From IMG/VR virus record IMGVR_UViG_3300025687_000060, positions 1 to 52,685 of that record: 52,685 nt of DNA. One strand, 5' to 3'. Positions 1 to 52,685 of the stretch are shown here, piece after piece. The notes under the pieces were generated by a model. That model was not told where the DNA came from. It ran no database searches and was given only the letters and a program-made list of their open reading frames with translations. This DNA comes from a virus. Made by a program: the position numbers and the translations under genes. Positions within the stretch are counted from its first letter, which is position 1, and each line of letters opens with the position of its first letter.

Positions 1-186
1 CTTTCGATGGCATCCGACCTTACCACCCGCCGCATTGTGTGGGCAGGTCGCAAGACTGATGACGCACCACAGACGATGGGTGACGACCTTCCGATCACTG
101 TAGAGACAGAATGGATCGCAGGGGTTTATGCAACAAAGTATGAACATGAAGCGACCCACGCCAAAGACCTCTGCTGCTTTGACTGA
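1..186 (+). CDS. Small protein of unknown function, 5' end outside the window
   Basis: Frame 1 is open from the window edge to a TGA at 184-186 and encodes about 61 residues ending KDLCCFD. An ATG at position 7 (MASDLTTRR...) could be the real start, but the frame continues upstream without a stop, so the gene may be longer. Sequence features are a Trp/Tyr-containing centre (ETEWIAGVYATKYEHE) and two adjacent Cys near the end. I do not recognise a family. Codon use is GC-rich like the next few small genes, and the stop lies just before the extended -10 promoter of the next gene, which supports a real gene end here. Confidence 0.45.
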   Translation, partial: LSMASDLTTRRIVWAGRKTDDAPQTMGDDLPITVETEWIAGVYATKYEHEATHAKDLCCFD

Positions 187-191
187 TTCTC

Positions 192-230
192 TGCTACAAT
201 TCTCTCAGTTCAACCAACCCACCCGAACCA
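192..230 (+). promoter_or_regulatory. Extended -10 promoter with CAGTTCA leader
   Basis: TGC-TACAAT at 192-200 is an extended -10 box; no -35 element stands at the normal distance. The 30-nt leader (201-230) reads TCTCTCAGTTCA then CA/CC-rich sequence up to the ATG, with no Shine-Dalgarno. The same TGC-(-10)-TCTCTCAGTTCA block recurs at 1434-1454. Confidence 0.6.
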
Positions 231-419
231 ATGAAGACCTTCACCGTCACCCTGACCGAATCCGAAGTGGATACGATCCTCGCAGCGATGTCTGAATACA
301 TCCTGCACGACGATCCTGAAATTGATCCTGAAGACCTGATCGGTGGCACTCCTGTTGTGGAGCGAGTGCAAGCGATCGAAGACAAGTTGATTGAAGCAAA
401 ACCCGACTGTGACGATTGA
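231..419 (+). CDS. Small acidic protein, unknown function
   Basis: Encodes 62 residues (MKTFTVTLTESEVDTILAAM...), acidic, with a predicted helix around residues 9-24 (TESEVDTILAAMSEYI) and a second one near residues 43-56. The lead-in phrase 'TVTLTESEVDTIL' resembles many small phage proteins that begin with a short strand and a helix, but I do not recognise a named family. The start is fixed by the upstream leader, which matches the leaders of neighbouring genes and ends exactly at this ATG. No SD is visible; translation would rely on an unstructured CA-rich leader. The downstream stem-loop at 431-456 probably ends its transcript. Confidence 0.65.
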   Translation: MKTFTVTLTESEVDTILAAMSEYILHDDPEIDPEDLIGGTPVVERVQAIEDKLIEAKPDCDD

Positions 420-430
420 TGAAGATACAC

Positions 431-468
431 AGAGGAGACTCAGACCAGTCTCCTCTGATCTTTATACT
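431..468 (+). promoter_or_regulatory. Stem-loop followed by -10 box (terminator-promoter unit)
   Basis: AGAGGAGACT (431-440) and AGTCTCCTCT (447-456) form a perfect 10-bp stem with a 6-nt loop, and a short T stretch follows. TATACT at 463-468 is a -10 candidate, with no clear -35. The leader to the ATG at 497 carries GAAGTTCA and CCACCACC, matching the neighbouring leaders. Confidence 0.55.
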
Positions 469-496
469 GACTGAAGTTCACCCACCACCTGAACCG

Positions 497-835
497 ATGA
501 CTCTCACACTCCAGCAGCAAGCACAAGAGACCATTGAAACCAATGTGCTCAAGTGGAGTCTGATGCTTTGTGATGCATTGACTCACAATGGTCCTTCTGA
601 TCGTTATTTCTACAGTCTGGAATCTGGTCGGAAGTATCATAAGATCTTCATGCACATTGGTGATCGGCGTGATTCTATTCATGCTTTTGTTGATAAGAAG
701 ACTGGTGAAGTGTACAAACCCGCAAGTGTAAAAGCACCTGCAAAAGGAGTGCGGTTTGATCTACGACTGATTGAGCAGCGTGAGTGGTTGATGGAACATG
801 CAGACTGGGCAGGAGGTTACCTTTACAAGCGTTGA
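497..835 (+). CDS. Conserved-looking small protein, unknown function
   Basis: Encodes 112 residues. The ATG at 497 is preferred over an in-frame TTG at 416, because the region between them contains the stem-loop and promoter and because the leader motif (GAAGTTCACCCACCACC) ends just before 497. The protein has an amphipathic N-terminal helix (TLQQQAQETIETNVLKW) and then a mixed alpha/beta stretch (RYFYSLESGRKYHKIFMHIGD, SIHAFVDKKTGEVYKPASVK). The 'FVDKKTGEVYKPAS.K.P' segment looks like a beta hairpin found in several uncharacterised phage proteins. That is a resemblance only, not a functional call. It is followed after 2 nt by the tiny membrane peptide gene. Confidence 0.7.
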   Translation: MTLTLQQQAQETIETNVLKWSLMLCDALTHNGPSDRYFYSLESGRKYHKIFMHIGDRRDSIHAFVDKKTGEVYKPASVKAPAKGVRFDLRLIEQREWLMEHADWAGGYLYKR

Positions 836-837
836 TT

Positions 838-924
838 ATGCTAACCACTGGAATCCTAGTCCTAGTTGCTTATTCTTTAGGAGCAGCACAAGTTCTTCTC
901 GTTCAACACATTCTTCGCAAATGA
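838..924 (+). CDS. 28-residue putative membrane peptide
   Basis: ATG at 838 opens a frame for MLTTGILVLVAYSLGAAQVL and eight more residues (LVQHILRK), ending at TGA 922-924. Residues 5-23 are almost all hydrophobic or small, so one transmembrane helix with a positively charged C-terminus (H-x-x-R-K) is likely. The gene starts 2 nt after the previous stop, and its own stop overlaps the next start as ATGA, an arrangement typical of translational coupling. Function is unknown; small single-span peptides in phages include holin-like and host-takeover factors, but nothing specific supports either. It is too short to assess by length or composition alone, so the case rests on its tight packing. Confidence 0.55.
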   Translation: MLTTGILVLVAYSLGAAQVLLVQHILRK

Positions 925-1133
925 AACTCTTCATCATCAACGAAGTCCTGTCTGATTATACCTCTGGAATGGTAGTTATCGCTGCTGAGTCTAAAGAACA
1001 GTGCCGTGAGTTCTTTATCAAGGAGTTCACTGAATATCATGCTGATGAGTTTGATAAGTATGCAGAGTTCACTATCATTGAAGGCGTGAACCATCCTGCT
1101 GGTGTTGTAGATTATGTGTACGGGGGTAGTTGA
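921..1133 (+). CDS. Small protein, unknown function
   Basis: Encodes 70 residues (MKLFIINEVLSDYTSGMVVI...). The ATG at 921 overlaps the stop of the 28-aa peptide gene (ATGA). An upstream in-frame start at 798 would run through the preceding gene end and give a Ser-rich low-complexity N-terminus, so I reject it. The pattern is beta-strand (KLFIINEVLSDY), beta (GMVVIAAESKEQCREFF), helix (REFFIKEFTEY), then a C-terminal strand (FTIIEGV). This looks like a compact alpha/beta fold of the kind seen in small cyanophage proteins of unknown role. No motif or catalytic residue can be named. Confidence 0.65.
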   Translation: MKLFIINEVLSDYTSGMVVIAAESKEQCREFFIKEFTEYHADEFDKYAEFTIIEGVNHPAGVVDYVYGGS

Positions 1134-1136
1134 TAC

Positions 1137-1228
1137 AAACCACTTTTCCGCCTGAGGAATTGTCCACTGGGGGGATTGCCAAAGTCCCCCACGCACCCTT
1201 ATAGTGACTTCAGTTCAGACAACCACCG
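1137..1228 (+). promoter_or_regulatory. 3' motif, G-run stem-loop and sigma70-type promoter
   Basis: AAACCACTTTTC (1137-1148) and CACTGGGGGG (1165-1174) also occur together at 51475-51505. GGGGGA (1170-1175) pairs with TCCCCC (1185-1190) around a 9-nt loop. A promoter overlaps the stem-loop: TTGCCA (1176-1181), 18-nt spacer, TATAGT (1200-1205). The leader 1206-1228 contains TTCAGTTCA and ACCACC and ends at the ATG of the next gene. Confidence 0.6.
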
Positions 1229-1420
1229 ATGACCGACTCCTGCTTCCCCGCTCAGATCGCTGAAATCACCAACCCTGAGAACGGGACCATCTTCTGGATT
1301 GAAGCGGCATACGCTGCCAAACTCCACGGTCTCTGGGATGACTTCCGCACCGACTATGGCACGACCGCTTCATTCGGTGGGGTGGATGCTGGGGAGTTCC
1401 TTGTGTGGTTGGGGTACTGA
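1229..1420 (+). CDS. Small protein, unknown function
   Basis: Encodes 63 residues (MTDSCFPAQIAEITNPENGT...). It is rich in aromatic residues (four Trp/Tyr in the second half) with a central segment IFWIEAAYAAKLHGLWDDF that probably forms a helix. The start is set by the promoter and leader immediately upstream. The GC-rich codon use matches its neighbours rather than the structural block. The 3' end of the gene carries the left arm of the next G-run stem-loop (TTGGGG at 1409-1414). I do not recognise a family. Confidence 0.65.
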   Translation: MTDSCFPAQIAEITNPENGTIFWIEAAYAAKLHGLWDDFRTDYGTTASFGGVDAGEFLVWLGY

Positions 1421-1471
1421 TCCCCCCAATCCATGCTATTATTCTCTCAGTTCACAAGCACCCCCAAACCA
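1409..1471 (+). promoter_or_regulatory. Stem-loop plus extended -10 promoter with CAGTTCA leader
   Basis: TTGGGG (1409-1414) pairs with CCCCAA (1424-1429), overlapping the end of the preceding gene. TGC-TATTAT at 1434-1442 is an extended -10. The leader begins TCTCTCAGTTCACA and ends AAACCA before the ATG at 1472, almost a copy of the unit at 192-230. Confidence 0.6.
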
Positions 1472-1777
1472 ATGGAACTGCTACCTCACGCCGAGACCTG
1501 GATCAGCACTCAGTTCAGACTGAAGGAGACGTTCTACTTCACCGATGGCACCGCAGAATCAACGTACAGGACCGTCACTAGACTGATCGCCAAACCCTCT
1601 CACGTTGACGTTCAGGGACACACACTCACCACCTGGCAGGAGCACAACCCTAACATCACCAAGATCACTCACACCTACACTCCTGTCATTACTGAAGAGA
1701 CTAACATTGAACACTTCAAGTTAGCAAACATCATTCATCTCAACGCTGGTCAACTCTTTCTCTCTCAAGTATCATGA
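1472..1777 (+). CDS. Small protein, unknown function
   Basis: Encodes 101 residues (MELLPHAETWISTQFRLKET...). The ATG at 1472 is chosen because the extended -10 and leader end there; the longer frame from 1433 would start inside the -10 region. The protein is Thr-rich with alternating polar/hydrophobic stretches (FYFTDGTAESTYRTVTRLIA, VDVQGHTLTTW, ITKITHTYTPVI), which suggests mostly beta strands. No known family recognised. Its stop overlaps the next start as ATGA (1774-1777), so it and the two following genes form a coupled trio. Confidence 0.65.
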   Translation: MELLPHAETWISTQFRLKETFYFTDGTAESTYRTVTRLIAKPSHVDVQGHTLTTWQEHNPNITKITHTYTPVITEETNIEHFKLANIIHLNAGQLFLSQVS

Positions 1778-1974
1778 ACCCCCAAATGATTGTCATTCCC
1801 AAGTCTAACAAAGCAAAGAATAGACTTGTGAATCTAATGAACAGTGATCCTATTATTACTGTTGAACAGGAAACACCTACCCAATTCTTCTGTGCTTCAT
1901 CTAATCAAAAGAACTTCTTCTGGGTGAATAAGACTAACGATTCACACTGGAACATCATGCCATTAGAACAATGA
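1774..1974 (+). CDS. Small basic/polar protein, unknown function
   Basis: Encodes 66 residues (MNPQMIVIPKSNKAKNRLVN...). A short strand (MIVIPKS), a basic helix (NKAKNRLVNLMN) and an aromatic C-terminal half (FFCASSNQKNFFWVNKTNDSHWNIMPL) are visible. The start overlaps the upstream stop by ATGA and its own stop overlaps the next start the same way. From here codon use drifts to AT-rich. No family recognised. Confidence 0.6.
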   Translation: MNPQMIVIPKSNKAKNRLVNLMNSDPIITVEQETPTQFFCASSNQKNFFWVNKTNDSHWNIMPLEQ

Positions 1975-2138
1975 ATCTCTCTACTATCACTCTCACAGTC
2001 AACAAAGACGAGGTTAATCCACTCTTACTACAGGATGCACTGATCATGTTACTACACACAATGAAGGTTGAAGTAGAAGAGAGCAGCGTATCTAACATTA
2101 CGGAGGAAGAGAATAGAGAGTACACTTCGTCCTTGTAA
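1971..2138 (+). CDS. 55-residue protein, unknown function
   Basis: ATG at 1971 overlaps the previous stop (ATGA), and the frame runs to TAA at 2136-2138. The product starts MNLSTITLTVNKDEVNPLLL and ends with an acidic tail (EEESSVSNITEEENREY...). The N-terminal pattern (short strand, then a helix DEVNPLLLQDALIMLLHTM) resembles the layout of the 62-aa protein at 231-419, so the two may be distant relatives, though I cannot confirm this by eye. It is the last gene before a long non-coding stretch. Confidence 0.55.
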   Translation: MNLSTITLTVNKDEVNPLLLQDALIMLLHTMKVEVEESSVSNITEEENREYTSSL

Positions 2139-2691
2139 TGGTAGAAAAGTAGTTAAAATGGGGTAAAAAGGTATTAAAAACGTTATTAAATGTATTAAAA
2201 AATATATTAGAGTGTTTTATTCGTCTTGATAATTATTAGTATTATTGTGTGATAATGATATGGATTCGTATCAAATAGTGTACTTATTCGTCCTTGGAAA
2301 CGTTAGAAATAGTGTAGAATACCTTATGGAATAGTGTCTATTATCTTATGAAATAGTCTGTATTATCTTATGAAATGCTTCGGGGTCTTGTGGTCTTAGC
2401 GTGCGCTCTACCGAAAGTCAACATAAAACTCCCAAACCCTCATAATACTTCACAGACCCAGGCAGTTTTTCACTTTTTCCCTTTTTCAGTTTTTATAATT
2501 TTTCAATTTATTACAAATACATAAAACCACATAAAGTCTCTGAGATTTTATGATAGAATGGCACAGTACAGTAAGGTATAGATACACTCCTAATTTACAC
2601 TGTATAATAACTCAGAGGACTTGTAAATATAATTTAATGAATTGAAATAATTATATTTTGTTTTGTTCAATTCTTTATATCTTATTATTTT
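2139..2691. other. AT-rich intergenic region, no gene seen
   Basis: About 550 bases with no credible reading frame. It holds imperfect repeats of GTATTAAAAA near 2170-2210, several copies of a TTCGTCCTTG-like string (about 2126, 2219, 2287), a 3 x 22 bp tandem repeat (2311-2376) and T-rich runs around 2465-2510. No promoter stands out clearly. An origin or regulatory region is possible but unproven. Confidence 0.5.
2311..2376. repeat. Three tandem copies of a 22-bp unit
   Basis: Three adjacent 22-bp units start at 2311, 2333 and 2355. All begin AGT and share the core TTATCTTATGAAAT (CCTTATGGAAT in unit 1). Units 2 and 3 are nearly identical. Confidence 0.7.
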
Positions 2692-2890
2692 ATGGCAGGG
2701 GCGGTGGCGACCTTTGGCGTCATCAGTGCTACCCCGCACCTCGTCGGATTGTCAGTCAGGCAAGCAAGGTTCCCTCCCTCGATTGTCCCCATATCCTACA
2801 GCATCAGGCGGCAGAGCACAAGGCAAAAGAGTAGCGGATGATACCAAAAACAGAATCCGATTGATCAGAAGGAGTTATGGGTCGGATCTG
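2692..2890. other. GC-rich island, structured RNA or decayed gene
   Basis: A sharp rise in GC after an AT-rich stretch. Two overlapping plus-strand frames exist: one of 49 codons from ATG 2692, and one running 2663-2932. Neither has an RBS or a recognisable product, and each looks incomplete without the other. Short complementary strings (CGGATT near 2739, AATCCG near 2855) would allow long-range pairing. The island ends at the stem-loop at 2893-2916. I cannot tell a non-coding RNA from a gene remnant. Confidence 0.3.
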
Positions 2891-2892
2891 GA

Positions 2893-2975
2893 AAACGGTA
2901 TCGCTCGCTACCGTTTGCTCTTGACGGGGTGAGATGGGTGCCGTATTGTTGTCTCAAGTCAATCAACCGCCTTCA
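2893..2975 (+). promoter_or_regulatory. Stem-loop, sigma70-type promoter and leader
   Basis: AAACGGTA (2893-2900) and TACCGTTT (2909-2916) form a perfect 8-bp stem. TTGACG (2921-2926), a 17-nt spacer and TATTGT (2944-2949) make a good host-type promoter. The leader (GTCTCAAGTCAATCAACCGC...) matches the other CAGTTCA leaders and ends at ATG 2976. Confidence 0.65.
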
Positions 2976-3575
2976 ATGACCGCTGAGAACGTCGCCGCCG
3001 TCTTCGCCCTTGCTACTGCTGGGGAGCGCCAGACTCATGCAAGTTGGTACGAAACCGCCAGGGGCGCTGCCATCGCCATCGCTGACGCCACTGGATTGGA
3101 ACTAGAGACCGTTGTTGGCGTGATCGCTGCCCTGTCGCCAACCAACAAGTGGGAGCGTAACTTAGTCGATGCTGAGAATGTCTGCCGTACCTATGTGGCG
3201 GATCCCGAGTCTGCTGCAAGCGTTAAAGTCTGCACATATGGAAATAACCTCAAGAAAGCGATTAAGGTGCTTGAGTGTGAAGAACTGGATGAGATTCCGA
3301 CTATACTCAACGGTCGTAAGATCACTGCGTTCTTCCACTGTATTATGGGTAATCAGGACGCCGTTGTTGTTGACGGTCACGCCTATTCTATCTGGATCGG
3401 TGATCGTCTTACTATGAAACAAGTGCCTAGTATTGGTGTGAAACTGTACAGAATTATCGTTGCTGATTATGTTCAAGCGACCGATATCATCAACGCTCGC
3501 TATAACCTAACTCTGAAACCTTACCAGGTCCAGAGCATTACTTGGAACGCCTGGAAACGCATCCACGGAGTATAA
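2976..3575 (+). CDS. HhH-GPD-like protein (possible DNA glycosylase fold)
   Basis: Encodes 199 residues. I take ATG 2976 (MTAENVAAVF...) rather than ATG 2934, because a promoter (2921-2949) and leader lie between the two. Most of the protein looks helical. Residues 111-136 (LNGRK followed by FF and then AVVVDGHA) match the spacing of the HhH-GPD superfamily, where an L-x-G-x-K hairpin precedes a catalytic Asp in a V-D-x-H context; here the Asp is D133. Residues 47-62 (VGVIAALSPTNKWERN) are another likely conserved block. What is seen is the motif; a role in base excision or DNA modification is inference. The gene stands alone between two non-coding stretches and has high GC. A perfect stem-loop follows the stop. 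Confidence 0.6.
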   Translation: MTAENVAAVFALATAGERQTHASWYETARGAAIAIADATGLELETVVGVIAALSPTNKWERNLVDAENVCRTYVADPESAASVKVCTYGNNLKKAIKVLECEELDEIPTILNGRKITAFFHCIMGNQDAVVVDGHAYSIWIGDRLTMKQVPSIGVKLYRIIVADYVQATDIINARYNLTLKPYQVQSITWNAWKRIHGV

Positions 3576-3584
3576 AGAACCGAA

Positions 3585-3611
3585 GGGAGAGTTACTAACA
3601 CTAACTCTCCC
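3585..3611 (+). terminator. Perfect 10-bp stem-loop after the HhH-GPD-like gene
   Basis: GGGAGAGTTA (3585-3594) pairs perfectly with TAACTCTCCC (3602-3611) around a 7-nt loop, 10 nt after the stop. There is no immediate T-run; a T-rich tract follows about 25 nt later. It is either a terminator or a 3' stabilising element. Confidence 0.55.
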
Positions 3612-4166
3612 AACACAAAATATAGAAAACCGTTTTTTCCTTTTTTTACATTTTTGTATCTTTATTCTTTATCCTTAAACCTTGAACTTTCGTCGTTGTT
3701 CTTTATACTTCTACTCGATGTGTTCGTCTTAATTACACCTGAGCGATAGTTAATTGTACCACTATTTTATGCGTCTCAGATGAGATTTAATGGACTCTTT
3801 ATCATTACGTTTTGTCAAAATATACTTGACCTCATGAGACTCACAGTGATAAATGTAAAATAGCAGTGCAACTTCGTGGTCTTAAGTATACCTTTCGTTT
3901 TGTTACAACTGTATCAGGGCGAACAGCAGTTGTCCGTGATCCGTGTTATGGTGCGGGTTTTGCCCTTGCGGTTTAAAAACGCCTAACTACCCTAACCTAC
4001 AACGAACCAAAATCGCTTGAGATATCACAAACCCATAAAAATTTCCCAGGACCCCAGAAGACCCCCCATACCTTAAAGGACCCCCCAATTCCCGCCCAGG
4101 AAAAAAAATTCCCAGGGGTAAAAATGGTCTCAAAAGTTCGCAGATAATATATAAAGAAAAGTGCCT
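3612..4166. other. Intergenic region, no gene seen
   Basis: About 555 bases without a convincing frame. The first half is AT-rich. Around 4040-4125 there are clustered C-runs (CCCAGGACCCC, GACCCCCC, GGACCCCCC, TTCCCAGGGG) that look like diverged copies of one another. No tRNA fold found by eye. Confidence 0.45.
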
Positions 4167-4326
4167 ATGAATATTATGAAACTCGAATTAGAAGACCACG
4201 AAAGAGAATTACTTATCGACACTCTAAGAGTATCGGATTGAGAACGACGTTGAGTTGATCAGAGATACAACAACCAAAGAAGATCTCACTTACTTATTGG
4301 AGAAAATAGAAGATGAATACTTATAA
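4167..4326 (+). pseudogene. Frameshifted small acidic protein gene
   Basis: From ATG 4167 the frame reads MNIMKLELEDHERELLIDTL and then hits a TGA at 4239-4241. Moving one base forward near CTAAGAG (about 4225) restores a long in-frame continuation, EYRIENDVELIRDTTTKEDL and on through LTYLLEKIEDEYL, to TAA at 4324-4326. The joined product (about 52 residues) is a regular acidic helical protein, which argues that the two halves were one gene and that a single A was gained (CTAAGAG from CTAGAG). This could be a real mutation, a sequencing error, or much less likely a programmed shift. The joined frame overlaps the next start by 14 nt. Confidence 0.6.
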
Positions 4327-4498
4327 TATTTCAGTAAATGGAATCACAGTATTTCAGAGAATACCTGAAAGAAAAGTAAAAGATTACAAAGAACGGTTGA
4401 GAAATTTTATTTTTATGGGTAGTTCAAAGACTCTCAAGGACATTGAGGAAAGAATTGAAGTGTCTCTAAATACTAAAGATGACCATTGCAATAATTGA
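4313..4498 (+). CDS. Small protein, unknown function
   Basis: Encodes 61 residues (MNTYNISVNGITVFQRIPER...). It has an N-terminal beta hairpin pattern (YNISVNGITVFQRI) followed by two basic/acidic helices (ERKVKDYKERLRNFIF and KTLKDIEERIEVSL). It overlaps the end of the frameshifted gene, as expected for a coupled pair. The promoter of the next gene starts inside its last codons (TTGCAA at 4486). No family recognised. Confidence 0.6.
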   Translation: MNTYNISVNGITVFQRIPERKVKDYKERLRNFIFMGSSKTLKDIEERIEVSLNTKDDHCNN

Positions 4499-4514
4499 CT
4501 TGTGGTGGTATAAT
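4486..4514 (+). promoter_or_regulatory. Sigma70-type promoter
   Basis: TTGCAA (4486-4491), 17-nt spacer, TATAAT (4509-4514), 23 nt before the ATG of the glycosyltransferase-like gene. It is a good host-type promoter, so this gene is probably early or middle. Confidence 0.7.
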
Positions 4515-20570: not shown

Positions 20571-23500
20571 ATGACCCAGAACACTAATTTAAATGTTTCT
20601 CCATATTTTGATGACTTCAATGATGAAAAGAACTACAACAAAGTTCTTTTTAAACCTGGATTCCCAGTTCAATCCAGAGAACTAACAACGCTACAATCAA
20701 TTTTACAAAATCAAATTGAAAAGTTTGGACAACATTTTTTCAAAGAAGGTTCTGTTGTTATTCCTGGTGGTACTTTTTATGACGATAGTTACTTCGCTGT
20801 AAGAGTAGATCCCAATTTCTTAGGTGTTCCTGTTTCTACATATTTAGATGTTTTAGTCAACAATAGAATAGAAATACAGGGAGAAATATCTGGAGTAAAA
20901 GCTACGGTTGTAAATAAAGTATCTTATCTAGAGTCTGAAGATGGTTATGATACGCTTTATGTAAAATATAATAGTTCTGGTTCAGATGGGTCAACCAGAG
21001 TATTCCAAAATGGAGAAAATTTAATAACTTTATCTGATATCACATATGCATCGACTTCTATTGATGCTAATAATACTTTTGCTAGATGTATTGTTTCAGA
21101 TTCAACAAAAACTGGATCTTCGGCATCGATAAGTGAAGGGGTATTTTTCATTAGAGGTTATTTTGTAAAAGTAAACTCTTCTACAGTAATTCTAGATCAA
21201 TACTCAAATACACCTAGTTATAGAATTGGTCTTCTCATTAGTGAAGAAATAGTTACTGCATCTTCATTAAATCAAGATCTTTATGATAATTCTCAAGGAT
21301 TTTCAAATGAGTCTGCCCCTGGTGCAGATAGATTTAGAGTCACTGCAACTCTTCACAAAAAACTGTTAACTGATACCAGTGACGAAAACTTTGTAGAGTT
21401 GATGCGTGTAGATAATGGATCTATAGAAAGATTTGTCAACAAAACAGACTACAATATTTTTAAAGATGAATTAGCAAGAAGAACTTATGATGAGTCTGGA
21501 GACTACTATGTAAGGCAATTTGCGTTAGATGTTAGAGAATCACTGAACGATAGAATAGGAAATAATGGAATTTATTTAAATACACAGACAACACAAAATG
21601 GAAATACTCCATCTGATGATATTTTCACAATTCAAGTTTCTCCAGGAAAAGCATATGTAAGAGGATATGAGATTGATAAAATCTCTACAACTTCTATTGA
21701 TGTATTAAAACCAAGAACAATAAAGAGTAAAGAGAATGTTAGTTTACCAGTTAATGTAAAAAATATTATGGAGGTAGAGAACGTTTATGGTTCTCCCAAA
21801 ATTGGATTCTCTACAACATACACTATAGAGTTACATGATAGAAGACTTGCTTCAAATGGACTTCTTGACGGAAGTTCTGTCCAAATCGGAAAAGCAAAGG
21901 TATATGACTACAATCAAAGTGTCTCTGGAATTACTACAACAAAATACGAACTGAGACTTCTTGATATTCAAACTTTTACAAACATTACTGTAGGATTTGC
22001 ACTAACAGCATCTGCAGGTTCTTACGTTAAAGGAAAATATAGTGGTTCCAGTGGAATTTCTGTAAGTGCTGTTACTGGTGGAACAACTATTTCTTTACAA
22101 GATGTAAGAGGAGATTTCCAAATAAATGAACCATTAGAAATTAATGGAGTAGATGTAGGGAGAAATATCACAACGATAAGAGATTACGATACAACCGACA
22201 CAAAAGCAGTTGGAGCAACTGTTGGTCTCTCGACATTTGCTGCTAACGTTACATTATCTAGGCAGAAAAAATCATTTACTGAAGCAAGTCAGTTTACAAT
22301 AAATTCGAATGGAACAGTTACTTCTTCTTCCATTTGGGATTTTAGAGACTATGTGAAAGTTGGAGACATCATAAGATATTCCGAACCAGCTTCAACTTTA
22401 CCAACATTTAATAGAGTAAATGCTGTTAACCAATCCAACTTTGTAGTCGAGGATATACCCTCAGTCACTAATGTCTGTGATGGTGGAGTTACAGGATCAA
22501 CATTTACCACAACAGATGTTGATATTTTAATTCCATCATTAAATTTAAATGCTGATCCAGGATACAGAATAAAGTTAAAAGACGAGTATATTTCTTCAAT
22601 TAATCTTTTAGATAGTTCGTATATTGTTAGAAAACAATTCAATGAGAATGTAACTGGAAGCACTTTCACATTCCAATTGAGTAGTTTAGGTGATAATGAT
22701 TTATATTTCGAACCATTCACCCAAGATAATTATATTTTAACTTGGGAGACTGGTCAGAAAGAGGTTATTCTTTCAACCCAAGTCACATTTGACTCAAACT
22801 TTAGAGAGTTAACAATTAATTCATTATCTAGAACTGGTAATGCAACTTTAACTGCAACTTGCAGAAGAACTAAATTATCATCAAAGAACAAATCAATCAA
22901 AAGATGCTCTAATCTTATTGTAAGTAGATCAAAGCATCAAGGATCTGGAATTGGATCTACAACTTTTGGTGATGGACTTTCATATAGTGAAGTATATGGA
23001 ACAAGAGTACAAGATGATCAAATATCATTGAACGTTGCTGACGTTTCTAGAATTCTTGCAATATTTGAATCAAATGATTCTAGTAATCCATCTTTACCTT
23101 CAATTGTAGTTTCATCACAAAGTGATACCTTTACGAATAATGTTATTGTAGGTGAACAATTTATAGGAGCAACTTCTGGAGCAGTTGCTCGTGTCGTTGA
23201 TATTTTAAGTGGAACACAATTGAATTTTGTGTATGAGAATGATAGACTTTTTGAGGTTGGAGAATCATTTACACTAAAAACCTCTGGCATTGTTGCTCAG
23301 ATTAGTAGTTTATCTGTCGGAAGTAGAAATATCTCCAAAAACTATGTTTTAGATGATGGACAAAGATCGGAGTTTTGTGACTTTGGAAGAATAGTTAGAA
23401 AGAGAAATATACCAGAACCAACTAAAAAAATAAGAATTGTTTTTGATTATTTTTCCAATAATGAAAGCAGTGGAACAGTTGAATCCATAAACAGTTATTC

Positions 23501-26500
23501 GTCTGTTAATTATTCAAATGATATTCCCTTTGCACTTGATAGAAGAGCAACAGATTTTATTGACCTTAGACCAAGAGTCAATTCATATTCTACATCATCT
23601 AGTGATTCACCATTCTCATTTAACAGTAGAAGTTTCTCTTCTTCATCATCAGAAACAGTAGTATCAAATAAAACCATTGTAGTGGATTATTCCTACTACC
23701 TTGGTAGAATTGATAGGTTGTATTTGACTAAAGATGGAAAATTTGAAGTCAAAAAAGGAGAACCATCAGAATATCCAAAGGCACCAGTTTCAAATACTGA
23801 GGCATTTGAGGTTGCTGTCATATCCATGACTCCATATGTCTTCAATGCAACAATTGACTCAAATGTGAAACTTATTCCACATAAGAGATTCACAATGAGT
23901 GATATTGGTGGACTTGAAAATAGAATTAAAACCCTTGAAGAGTACACGACTTTATCTCTTCTAGAAACTGACACAAAAAATCTTTCAATTAAAGACCCAA
24001 ATACAGGTTTAGATAAATTCAAATCTGGATTCTTCGTTGATAACTTTAGAAATCACAGATCACATAATTTATCTGGAGATTCATTCTTTGACATTGATGT
24101 CGAAAGAGGAGAGTGCAGACCAAGATCCACAGAAAGAAATATACCCCTTACATTTGAGACTAAATCTTCACTGTCCGACCCAGTAAATGCAGACTATAGG
24201 TGGATTGAAGATTTTGAAGACTCGAATGTCACCAGAAAGGGTAATGCATTAACTTTGTCATTCACTGAAGTAGATTTTATAGATCAACCTTTAGCGACCA
24301 GAACAGAGAATTTAAACCCATTCCATATTGCACTATATGCAGGATCCATCTCACTCAATCCTGCATCAGACTTCTGGATGGAAGAAGTCATTTTACCAAC
24401 ACCAGATGTAGTCAAGATCGATTCTCCATTTGATGGAATGGCATCTCTTCTTGGTGTTGAAGATCGTGAAAATGGTGGAATGGCCGCAAGTTATTGGAAT
24501 TCTCACGAGCAAACTTGGACAGGAAGAGAACAAATCAAAGAAGAAGTTCTTAGTGACGTAGAGGTTGGCAGACAAAGAACTTCCAATAGATTGCTAAGAG
24601 GTAATGGAATCAGAAGAATTACAACCGATGCTGTAACTAGACAAAGAGAATTACTTAATACATTTAATGAAACAGGTATCGATAGAGAATTTGGTTTCGA
24701 ACTTACCGCTGGCGAAGAAGTTGTAAGTCTTGGAAGTAGAGTCATTGGAGTAGATGTTCTCTTCAATTGCAGATCAAGGAATGTTGAAGTTGTTGGCAAG
24801 AGATTAAAACCAAATACCAGATACTACGTTTTTATGGAAAACGTAGACATGACAGATTATTGCGTTCCAAAACTTCTTCCAATTACTATGGTTAGAGGTT
24901 CTTTTGCAACTGGTGATATTGTTGATACTGTTACTCCTCCTGGATCGTCAACAGCAAGTATTAGAATGAGATTGGCACAACCAAACCATTTGTTTGGACC
25001 ATTCAATGCTCCAACAGATACTGTTGATTCAAGTATTAATGGAACTACTTTATACTCTGGAAGCAGTGAATATTTAAATATCGACACTGCTGGACTTGCA
25101 TTTCAAACAAGACCAGACCATCTTGGATGGGTAAAGTCTGGAAGCAAATTAGTTAATATTTCTGGAACAGCAGAAGCAACTGTTGATAATATTGAATTGG
25201 TATCGGATAGTACTGGAACTATCATATTCTCCTTACATATCCCAGATCCAAAAGTTTCAAGTAATCCTAAGTTTACGACTGGAAGCAATACAATCAGATT
25301 GACAACGAGTTCAGTAAACTCAAATCAATTGGATAAGAGTGAAAGTTCTGCGGAAGCAGTGTTTGTTGCCACTGGATATGCTCAAAATGTCCAAGAGCAA
25401 ACTTTATCGATCAAAACTGCAGAAGTAGAAAGAAAACAGATCGGCAGTGATCAACCAATTAGTAGGATTACACAAGAACTTGAAGAAGAAACAATCGTAG
25501 TCCAGGAAACTAGAGACACTGGTTGGTATGATCCACTTGCTCAGTCTTTCTTGGTTGATAGAAACCAAAGTCAAGATGGAGTCTTTATTACTGGTGGTGA
25601 AGTTTACTTTAAAGAAAAAGATCCAAATGTTGCGGTGACGGTTCAAATTAGAACCATGAGAGATGGAACTCCAACTACTACTATTGTTCCATATGGTGAA
25701 GTTACACTAAATCCATCAAGTGTAAACACTTCAACTGATGGTAGCGTTGCAACAAGATTTACCTTCAATACACCAGTTTACTTGCAAAGTGGTTATGAGT
25801 ATGCTCTGGTACTGGTAGCACCAACAGAAAAGTATCTTGCATTTGTAACAAGAATGGGAGAGGAAGATTTAATCCTCCAAACAGTTTATAATAGACAACC
25901 ATATCTTGGTTCTCTGTTCAAATCACAAAATAGTTCAACTTGGACTCCAAGTCAACTTGAAGACTTGAAATTTAAGTTGTTCAAAGCAAAATTTGTAACA
26001 AATACTCCATCATTTATTACTTTCTATAATAAAGAACTTCCATTAGTGAAGGTCAGAAAAAATAATCCAGTAGTAGCATACTCTAAGAGACAATATGTAT
26101 CTATAGCAAGTACAAATACTGCATTTGCCCAAGGAAATACCATTACACAGGGTTCCAATTCTGGAGATATTTTTGCCACTGGAGGTCCAGTTGATCTTGG
26201 TGGATCGGCATTAACTGTTTCATATTCTGGTATTGGATTGACTGATGGAACTTTTACTGGAATAGGATTTACATCTCTAACTGGATTTGGAAATTCTTGT
26301 CTTGCTACTGTTACAGTTTCAAGTGGAGCTATCAGTAATATTAGTGTAACTGATTCTGGTTCTGGATATGCAGTTGGAGATCTTTTACTTGCAAATCAAA
26401 TTGGAGAGACTGGATCTGGAGTAAGAGTAACAGTTGGATCTGTCAGTCAAACAAACTTAATTGTCCTTGATAATATTGATACAAATATTACCACTGGAAT

Positions 26501-51476: not shown

Positions 51477-51526
51477 ACCACTTTTCAAACTGGCACACTG
51501 GGGGGGTCTTCGGACCTCCTTTTTTT
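51475..51526 (+). terminator. Bipartite 3' motif and UUCG terminator
   Basis: AAACCACTTTTC (51475-51486, overlapping the stop) and CACTGGGGGG (51496-51505) repeat the pair at 1137-1174. The stem GGGGGTC (51502-51508), loop TTCG, GACCTCC (51513-51519) has one G-T pair and is followed by seven T (51520-51526). Confidence 0.85.
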
Positions 51527-51527
51527 G

Positions 51528-51533
51528 TATAAT
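51528..51533 (+). promoter_or_regulatory. -10 box TATAAT after the terminator
   Basis: Perfect TATAAT right after the terminator T-run, 21 nt before ATG 51555. No clear -35. The layout (stem-loop, -10, short A/C-rich leader without SD) repeats that of the first 3 kb. Confidence 0.6.
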
Positions 51534-51554
51534 AGGTCCATACGCAACAGAGCA

Positions 51555-52685
51555 ATGACCGTTCGCCACGAAATCAAGTCCCAACTTGCCAAACTCCTTG
51601 CTACTGAGGACCTGGTGGTTGAGCACAAGAAAGTGGAAACTGCTTGTTTCAATGTCCACACTCGTGTGCTGACCCTGCCAATGTGGGAGAAGGCAAGTAA
51701 CACCATGTATGATCTTCTGGTTGGACATGAAGTGGGACATGCTCTCTACACTCCAGATGAGGATTGGTTGGAGACTCATAAGATTCCACCTCAGTTTGTG
51801 AATGTGGTTGAAGATGCTCGTATTGAGAAACTGATGAAGCGTCGTTATGCTGGACTTGCTAAGACGTTCTATAGTGGTTACAAGGAGTTGTCTGAGGAAG
51901 ACTTCTTTCAACTTGAAAATGAAGATATTGATGCCTTCAATCTTGCTGACCGTGCTAACTTGTGGTTTAAGATTGGTAATTTTGTAGATATTCCTATTGA
52001 ACCTGGTGAAGAAACGGAAATTATTAACCTGATTGCTGAGTCTGAAACCTTTGCTGATGTTCTGATTGCTGCAGAGCAACTCTATAAGTTCTGTAAAGCA
52101 AAGCAGCAAGAAGAAACTAAGACCCCGATGGATGATTTGGAGTCTCAGACTTCTGGTTCTAATCAAGGTGCTTCTGATTTCTCTGATCAACCTGAGGGTG
52201 ATACTGAGAATGCCAACGACAATGCCAACGAAGAAGATAATGCCAACGAAGGTGCTCCTGTTGGCAATCAATCCAAACCTCAAGGTGGTGGCGACACTGC
52301 TGGAGATCTTGGTGGCGAAACCAATGAGGAACCTGAAGTCAAAACTATGGAGTCACTTGAGGAAGCACTCAAGAATTTGGTTGATCATAATGGACAGGAG
52401 AATGTCTACCTGGAACTTCCCAAACTTGATTTGAATAAAATTATTGTTCCTAATGCTGAAATTTACGACAAGTGTAAGGAATATTGGGGTTCTTGGATGG
52501 AAGAACATGAATATACCACCGAAGAAATCTTTGGTGAAGTTGATAAGAAGTTCTTAGAATTCAAGCGTTCGGCGCAGAAAGAAGTAAACTATCTGGTCAA
52601 AGAGTTTGAGTGCCGTAAGGCAGCAGACTCATATGCCCGTGCTACTACTGCTCGGACTGGTGTGTTGGACTGCACCAAACTCCAC
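51555..52685 (+). CDS. HEXXH zinc-metalloprotease-like protein (3' end outside window)
   Basis: Open from ATG 51555 to the window edge, 377 codons without a stop. HEVGH at residues 58-62 (in DLLVGHEVGHALYTPDEDW) is a zinc-peptidase motif, and NVVEDARIEKLMKRRY (83-98) supplies a likely third ligand and matches the 'V-E-D-x-R-I-E' block found in CobT/VWA-associated peptidases. A low-complexity acidic linker with three AN(D/E)-type repeats (about 217-233) separates it from a second charged helical part (about 260-377). Cyanophage homologues often carry a VWA-like C-terminus, which would lie outside the window. Substrate unknown. Promoter is host-type, so it is probably not a late virion gene. 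Confidence 0.75.
   Translation, partial: MTVRHEIKSQLAKLLATEDLVVEHKKVETACFNVHTRVLTLPMWEKASNTMYDLLVGHEVGHALYTPDEDWLETHKIPPQFVNVVEDARIEKLMKRRYAGLAKTFYSGYKELSEEDFFQLENEDIDAFNLADRANLWFKIGNFVDIPIEPGEETEIINLIAESETFADVLIAAEQLYKFCKAKQQEETKTPMDDLESQTSGSNQGASDFSDQPEGDTENANDNANEEDNANEGAPVGNQSKPQGGGDTAGDLGGETNEEPEVKTMESLEEALKNLVDHNGQENVYLELPKLDLNKIIVPNAEIYDKCKEYWGSWMEEHEYTTEEIFGEVDKKFLEFKRSAQKEVNYLVKEFECRKAADSYARATTARTGVLDCTKLH

Follow-up and report, generated by a model that had tools for sequence, protein, structure and literature searches.

A predicted gene-start cassette repeated before the small genes of T4-type cyanophages

Promoter-early stem-loops (PeSLs) of T4-type phages were reportedly described by Arbiol et al. 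in 2010 and Comeau et al. in 2014, and they are the closest known relatives of the element considered here. A search for PeSLs in the 'ORFanage' of phage S-PM2 yielded a single early promoter and two candidate stem-loops, and PeSLs were judged unlikely there (Puxty et al., 2015; PMC4503421). For cyanophage Ma-LMM01, cyanobacterial sigma-70-like promoters have been described (PMC5780444). In this work we analysed the viral record IMGVR_UViG_3300025687_000060 over its whole length of 52,685 nucleotides (the window), a T4-type cyanophage contig that encodes baseplate, terminase, portal and head proteins. Its left end carries repeated units in which a −10 box, the hexamer AGTTCA and a C/A-rich leader precede a small gene, and we consider it quite probable that these are self-contained gene-start cassettes of T4-type cyanophages, transcribed early and exchangeable between genomes.

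Four units at the left end of the window have the structure TAnnnT-N6-AGTTCA-(11–18 C/A-rich nucleotides)-ATG, with the 6-nucleotide spacer exact in 4/4 (−10, AGTTCA and ATG at 195/207/231, 463/475/497, 1200/1212/1229 and 1437/1449/1472). These four composites in positions 1–4500 compare with 0.0245 expected, an excess of about 160-fold, and none of 2,000 dinucleotide shuffles contained more than one; no fifth site was found when both strands of the whole window were scanned. The enrichment concerns only the composite, as CAGTTCA by itself occurs 15 times in the window for 10.9 expected. The original prediction had described a stem-loop, a −10 box and a leader, in the same order, before the genes at 497, 1229, 1472 and 2976, and this description was correct, the unit before 2976 having a variant core (TATTGT-6-AAGTCA, with AAGTCA instead of AGTTCA). 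It was also right in giving the gene at 231 a unit devoid of stem-loop, which starts 8 nucleotides past the stop codon of the preceding open reading frame (ORF), and the gene at 51555 a stem-loop and −10 box followed by a diverged leader, ATACGCAACAGAGCA. No tRNA was found in the window, and Rfam gave 0 matches across it to known RNA families such as leaders or riboswitches.

More than 100 viral contigs, as well as phage S-PM2, carry the unit. A scan of viral DNA with the strict pattern TAnnnT TCTCTC AGTTCA yielded at least 120 stretches, the source of the loci fetched for this work; nearly all of them run into a C/A-rich leader and an ATG, and about 12 are evident chance matches. In 1.2 Mb of fetched DNA, −10/AGTTCA pairs are found 408 times at the 6-nucleotide spacer versus 10–77 times at others. 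Circularity was avoided by anchoring sites on AGTTCA, a C/A leader and an ORF of at least 35 codons, with the discriminator of the fetch pattern excluded: TAnnnT lies exactly 6 nucleotides upstream in 183 of the 214 anchored sites, and spacers of 4, 5, 7 and 8 gave one match in total. The exceptions mostly read CATACT, AATACT or CAGGAT, and differ chiefly at the first position of the −10 box. With a start site 7 nucleotides after the −10, the A of AGTTCA would fall at +1; the distance from the end of the hexamer to the ATG varies from 9 to 23 nucleotides. T4-type gp23 was found in every tested contig larger than 100 kb. The original prediction had proposed the frequency of the motif in relatives as a test, and this frequency is far above chance; the units are indeed repeated, shared and placed so as to control genes one by one, and the similarity of their leaders extends beyond coding bases.

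Larger contigs carry the units as arrays on one strand (14 units within 4.4 kb, 12 within 3.7 kb, 13 within 7.4 kb and 10 within 4.5 kb), the reversed pattern being close to zero, and S-PM2 carries an array of ten units at 21,542–24,600. One small ORF lies behind each unit (median 63 amino acids), and the genes linked to 437 units (redundant loci counted) group into 86 families, with a function unknown for nearly all. Arrays are G+C-rich islands (47–61% versus 34–46% in the flanks), and the late-promoter core (C/A)TAAATA is found 0 times in about 23 kb of arrays versus 13 times in flanks and S-PM2 structural genes totalling about 32 kb. The subtype in which a TCTCTC-like sequence separates the −10 from AGTTCA tends to be the last of its array (35 non-redundant arrays; 0/5,000 permutations). 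Along arrays such as those of contigs L288, L289, L291 and S-PM2 (L127), G(A/T)-type discriminators come first, then AC/AA, and TCTCTC last. The family F0 gene, also present at the left edge of the window, is frequently the final gene of its array; the S-PM2 homologue of the window ORF is 62% identical and located behind the unit at 24583. Several units of the S-PM2 array (AJ630128) precede ORFs of 55–67 codons that are unannotated on that strand, and the annotated S-PM2p071 and S-PM2p074 lie in this stretch on the opposite strand. RefSeq NC_006820 names an anti-restriction protein there, S-PM2p072 (L127 17761–18195, family F23), and its match in S-SZBM1 is likewise so named; Pfam gave no match for the F23 member from viral contig L290. 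Because of the naming of S-PM2p072, arrays may contain anti-defence genes.

Gene neighbours change at the units; this change, the −35 in the loop, the −50 element and the kinship to PeSLs were absent from the original prediction. In 222 pairs of non-identical loci the downstream gene is shared (at least 80% DNA identity) and the upstream DNA is unrelated, identity remaining at background to about −70 and climbing inside the unit. The reverse holds for 43 pairs, which have the upstream gene in common, stay alike across the hairpin as far as the −10, and carry different genes behind it. Both directions are seen with a boundary at the unit, in pairs that are not independent of each other, and one gene family can be found behind differing promoter subtypes. 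A transposon-like repeat was ruled out by the single orientation of the units, their position before ORFs and their lack of conserved ends. The change of neighbours and the occurrence of one family behind different subtypes are also what would be expected if the unit were chiefly a recombination substrate, homogenisation making leaders and promoters alike, with AGTTCA having no function in RNA. However, AGTTCA is exact while the letters of the −10, hairpin arms, leader and spacer vary, and the 6-nucleotide phase is strict; homogenisation is disfavoured because it should have kept the adjacent letters as well, and we consider this explanation possible but rather doubtful.

The strict conservation of positions +1 to +6 (predicted) before more than 80 gene families could instead reflect recognition in RNA. 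AGTTCA would then be a 5′ tag recognised by an RNA-binding protein or a nuclease of phage or host origin (a RegA-like translational repressor would be one example), acting as a joint switch; put more generally, AGUUCA at the predicted 5′ end would identify an RNA as a viral early message, either to a dedicated factor or to the host ribosome. The existence of a sister tag, AGTCAA(AGGAAC), AGUCAA in the message, in S-SCSM1 and others is in favour of this idea, which in both forms we consider possible but rather doubtful. Against it, no factor that would bind the tag came to light, shuffled sequences are just as accessible as the leader (unpaired probability 0.66 vs 0.65 for the leader), and the variable distance to the ATG disfavours a protein that also covers the start codon. 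The shared regulator or ribosome interaction suggested by the original prediction is thus not supported by these properties. The same prediction had noted leaders devoid of a Shine–Dalgarno (SD) motif, and an SD-like motif is indeed present in only 16/329 leaders, a trait that is not distinctive because only 9/28 of the large ORFs of the window have one. If the tag exists, a foreign gene placed behind a cassette would at once be treated, in translation and in regulation, like a viral early gene.

The sister type is repeated in S-SCSM1 and single in Syn9, S-WAM1, S-RIM32 and S-PM2. It reads TATTCT-ATAAG-AGTCAAAGGAAC-...-ATG, with a spacer of 5 and often an SD-like AAGGAA, and is also found behind GTCCAC/GGCACA elements (L302, S-SCSM1, at 3365, 5958, 7729, 8368 and 10065; L304, Syn9, at 758; L306, S-WAM1, at 336). 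Across isolates a simple spacer-5 AGTCAA pattern is near control level, though S-SCSM1 has individual units that are clear-cut.

Of 234 non-redundant units, 134 have a hairpin upstream of the −10 (minimum 6 bp, including 4 or more G-C pairs), versus 52 expected from shuffles, with its G arm starting at about −42 and its C arm ending at about −23. TTGAC lies 16–18 nucleotides upstream of the −10 in 28 units, no other distance being represented more than once; this position is the loop region of the hairpin. Further upstream, TGGCACA is centred on −50 with an interquartile range of 1 nucleotide, and GGCACA occurs at that position in 70/230 units versus 3 further upstream. The fixed spacing of TAnnnT, with TTGAC in a subset, matches by consensus a putative promoter of the host-sigma-70 type. 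In the window, the predicted stem-loops held unequally: the one at 430–457 is strong, those at 1170–1190 and 1403–1436 are present but not unusual compared with shuffles, and that at 2894–2915 lies in a stretch with an alternative fold (Table 1). The 5′ arm of the unit 4 hairpin is within the end of the F1 gene that encodes WLGY, with the stop codon in the loop; in many contigs the TGA stop codon of F1 genes is inside a TTGACC −35-like box.

The unit before the gene at 51555 has the order hairpin-T7-G-TATAAT-AGGTCC-ATACGCAACAGAGCA-ATG, and in 50 relatives CCACTTTTCAAACTGGCACA is followed by the hairpin, a T tract (in most orthologues) and directly the −10. At this one locus, the stem shows two-sided changes with pairing kept in 74 cells of the alignment of 50 relatives (0/500 shuffles), and sliding the partner by 1–3 columns halves the score or lowers it further. 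This hairpin is a predicted terminator–promoter composite conserved as RNA structure. The element CCACTTTT...(CTGGCAC/TTGTCCAC) is common to the distant window units at 1140–1167 and 51478–51496, and is kept in the 50 relatives of the second. A palindrome that straddles the −35 position might instead act at the DNA level, as an operator bound by a dimeric repressor or activator. The sequence of an operator should be conserved, and here arms differ between units and change on both sides in orthologues while remaining complementary, so this proposal is largely refuted and very improbable. Finally, chance resemblance of a common 7-mer, to which the lack of over-representation of CAGTTCA alone might point, is refuted by the excess of the composite in the window and its repetition in relatives.

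With one 46-nucleotide unit as query, BLAST gave convincing matches only in S-PM2 and S-CAM7, and tblastn with the protein of the 1229 gene found no match in phage records. A scan of genomes for the unit gave scattered taxa among the matches listed. No arrays were found in 386 cyanobacterial genomes, which have at most 5 scattered matches each, somewhat above the reversed control; an origin of the promoter and leader in the host is therefore not supported. In the window itself, a 22-nucleotide AT-rich tandem repeat (GAAATAGTGTAGAATACCTTAT, 3.2 copies) at 2306–2376 sits in a 28% G+C stretch devoid of evident genes and flanked by G+C-rich parts.

Table 1. Positions of the units and of the genes behind them in the window
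Feature	Position	Strand	Remark
Small ORF, family F0 (MASDLxTRxIVWAG...)	7–186	+	own unit beyond window edge
Unit 1 −10 box TACAAT, TGn-extended	195–200	+	no hairpin
Unit 1 predicted mRNA 5′ leader, AGTTCA + C/A-rich	207–230	+	
Small ORF, 62 amino acids, family F27	231–419	+	
Unit 2 hairpin, 11 bp	430–457	+	strong: −19 kcal/mol, z −4.4 vs shuffles
Unit 2 −10 box TATACT	463–468	+	
Unit 2 leader (AGTTCA...)	475–496	+	
Small ORF, 112 amino acids, DUF7717 / phrog_818	497–835	+	
Element CCACTTTT...TTGTCCAC, 5′ of unit 3 hairpin	1140–1167	+	also at 51478–51496
Unit 3 hairpin, −35 TTGCCA (1176–1181) in/adjoining loop	1170–1190	+	z −1.4, not unusual
Unit 3 −10 box TATAGT	1200–1205	+	
Unit 3 leader	1212–1228	+	
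Small ORF, 63 amino acids, family F1	1229–1420	+	32 F1 members among unit-linked genes
Unit 4 hairpin	1403–1436	+	z −0.7 vs shuffles, not unusual
Unit 4 −10 box TATTAT, TGn-extended	1437–1442	+	
Unit 4 leader	1449–1471	+	
Small ORF, 101 amino acids, phrog_24976	1472–1777	+	
Unit 5 hairpin	2894–2915	+	read in sequence; 70-nucleotide stretch predicted to fold otherwise
Unit 5 −35 TTGACG, 17 nucleotides, −10 TATTGT	2921–2949	+	
Unit 5 variant leader AAGTCAATCAACCGCCTTCA	2956–2975	+	
ORF, 199 amino acids, DUF7178 / phrog_3842	2976–3575	+	
Conserved CCACTTTTCAAACTGGCAC element	51478–51496	+	
Predicted terminator hairpin and its T7 tract; stem covaries in relatives	51500–51526	+	hairpin proper 51500–51521
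−10 box TATAAT adjoining T tract	51528–51533	+	
Diverged leader ATACGCAACAGAGCA	51540–51554	+	predicted +1 at 51540
Peptidase-like gene, phrog_459	51555–52685	+	extends past window end

We propose that a full cassette would comprise, behind the previous gene and about 50 nucleotides before the start site, a CTGGCACA or GTCCAC element, then a G+C-rich hairpin, then a promoter for unmodified host sigma-70-type RNA polymerase (TAnnnT, sometimes TGn-extended or with a TTGAC −35 in the loop), and a leader running from the predicted +1 through AGTTCA and about 9–18 C/A-rich nucleotides up to the ATG. Arranged on a single strand, one per tiny orphan gene, the cassettes would give each gene its own early promoter, and the hairpin would terminate or 3′-protect the upstream mRNA. 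As all cassettes are alike, recombination between them would exchange genes together with their own switch. We infer that such recombination caused the change of neighbours; the +1 hexamer would act at the 5′ end of the mRNA. Genes seem to be swappable between viruses of ocean and freshwater cyanobacteria, with the switch kept.

Several observations weigh against this proposal. About 40% of the units have no hairpin of the kind defined above, a T run follows only 4/134 array hairpins, most being devoid of a U-tract, and most units lack a canonical −35. The idea that each unit ends the previous transcript is consequently supported for some units only: hairpins are in excess and the one at 51500 has the form of a canonical terminator, but few array hairpins have a U-tract. 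The share of the TCTCTC variant is over-represented because loci were fetched with one strict variant, and the 222 and 43 pairs are not independent. AGTTCA units were not found in Syn9 or S-CRM01, and are therefore not general to cyanophages. Lastly, promoter activity, start sites, early timing and termination are all predicted from sequence. With these reservations, the cassettes would provide T4-type cyanophages with a sequence-defined mechanism for trading small accessory genes. The motif would predict transcript starts to the base, reveal unannotated small genes and mark the small-gene islands of environmental cyanophages, and the conserved mRNA 5′ end raises a question that is testable in S-PM2 and Synechococcus WH7803.

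Early promoters of T4 share with the cassette an assumed recognition by host sigma-70; T4 has no AGTTCA signal, with 3 scattered pattern matches versus 2 in the reversed control. The Ma-LMM01 promoters differ in that no repeated leader or cassette is described in the available part of that text (PMC5780444), and our pattern scan of this genome gave only scattered AGTTCA matches. The S-PM2 ORFanage belongs to a phage that carries the cassette and consists of hyperplastic orphan genes; just downstream of it, at 21.5–24.6 kb, is the dense array described in this work. The comparison with PeSLs draws in part on features given by Puxty et al. (2015). Both elements place a stem-loop and an early-type promoter between small genes of T4-type hyperplastic regions, with shuffling at the cassette; the units described here have a T4-type carrier, a sigma-70-type promoter by consensus, an adjoining stem-loop, hyperplastic small genes and an exchange boundary at the cassette. 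For terminator action the sequence signs are mixed, with a T7 tract at the 51500 hairpin and a T tract at most of its orthologues, but a T run behind only 4/134 array hairpins. Compared with the PeSL features considered here, the cyanophage cassette appears to differ by its cyanophage host, a fixed AGTTCA at the predicted +1 followed by a C/A-rich leader, a −35 that is often absent or in the loop, CTGGCACA at −50, mostly no U-tract, and arrays of up to 14 units with ordered promoter subtypes. In conclusion, the cassette is the PeSL principle in a cyanophage-specific form, in which the hexamer fixed at +1 with its leader, the element at −50, the long cyanophage arrays and the ordered subtypes appear to be new.

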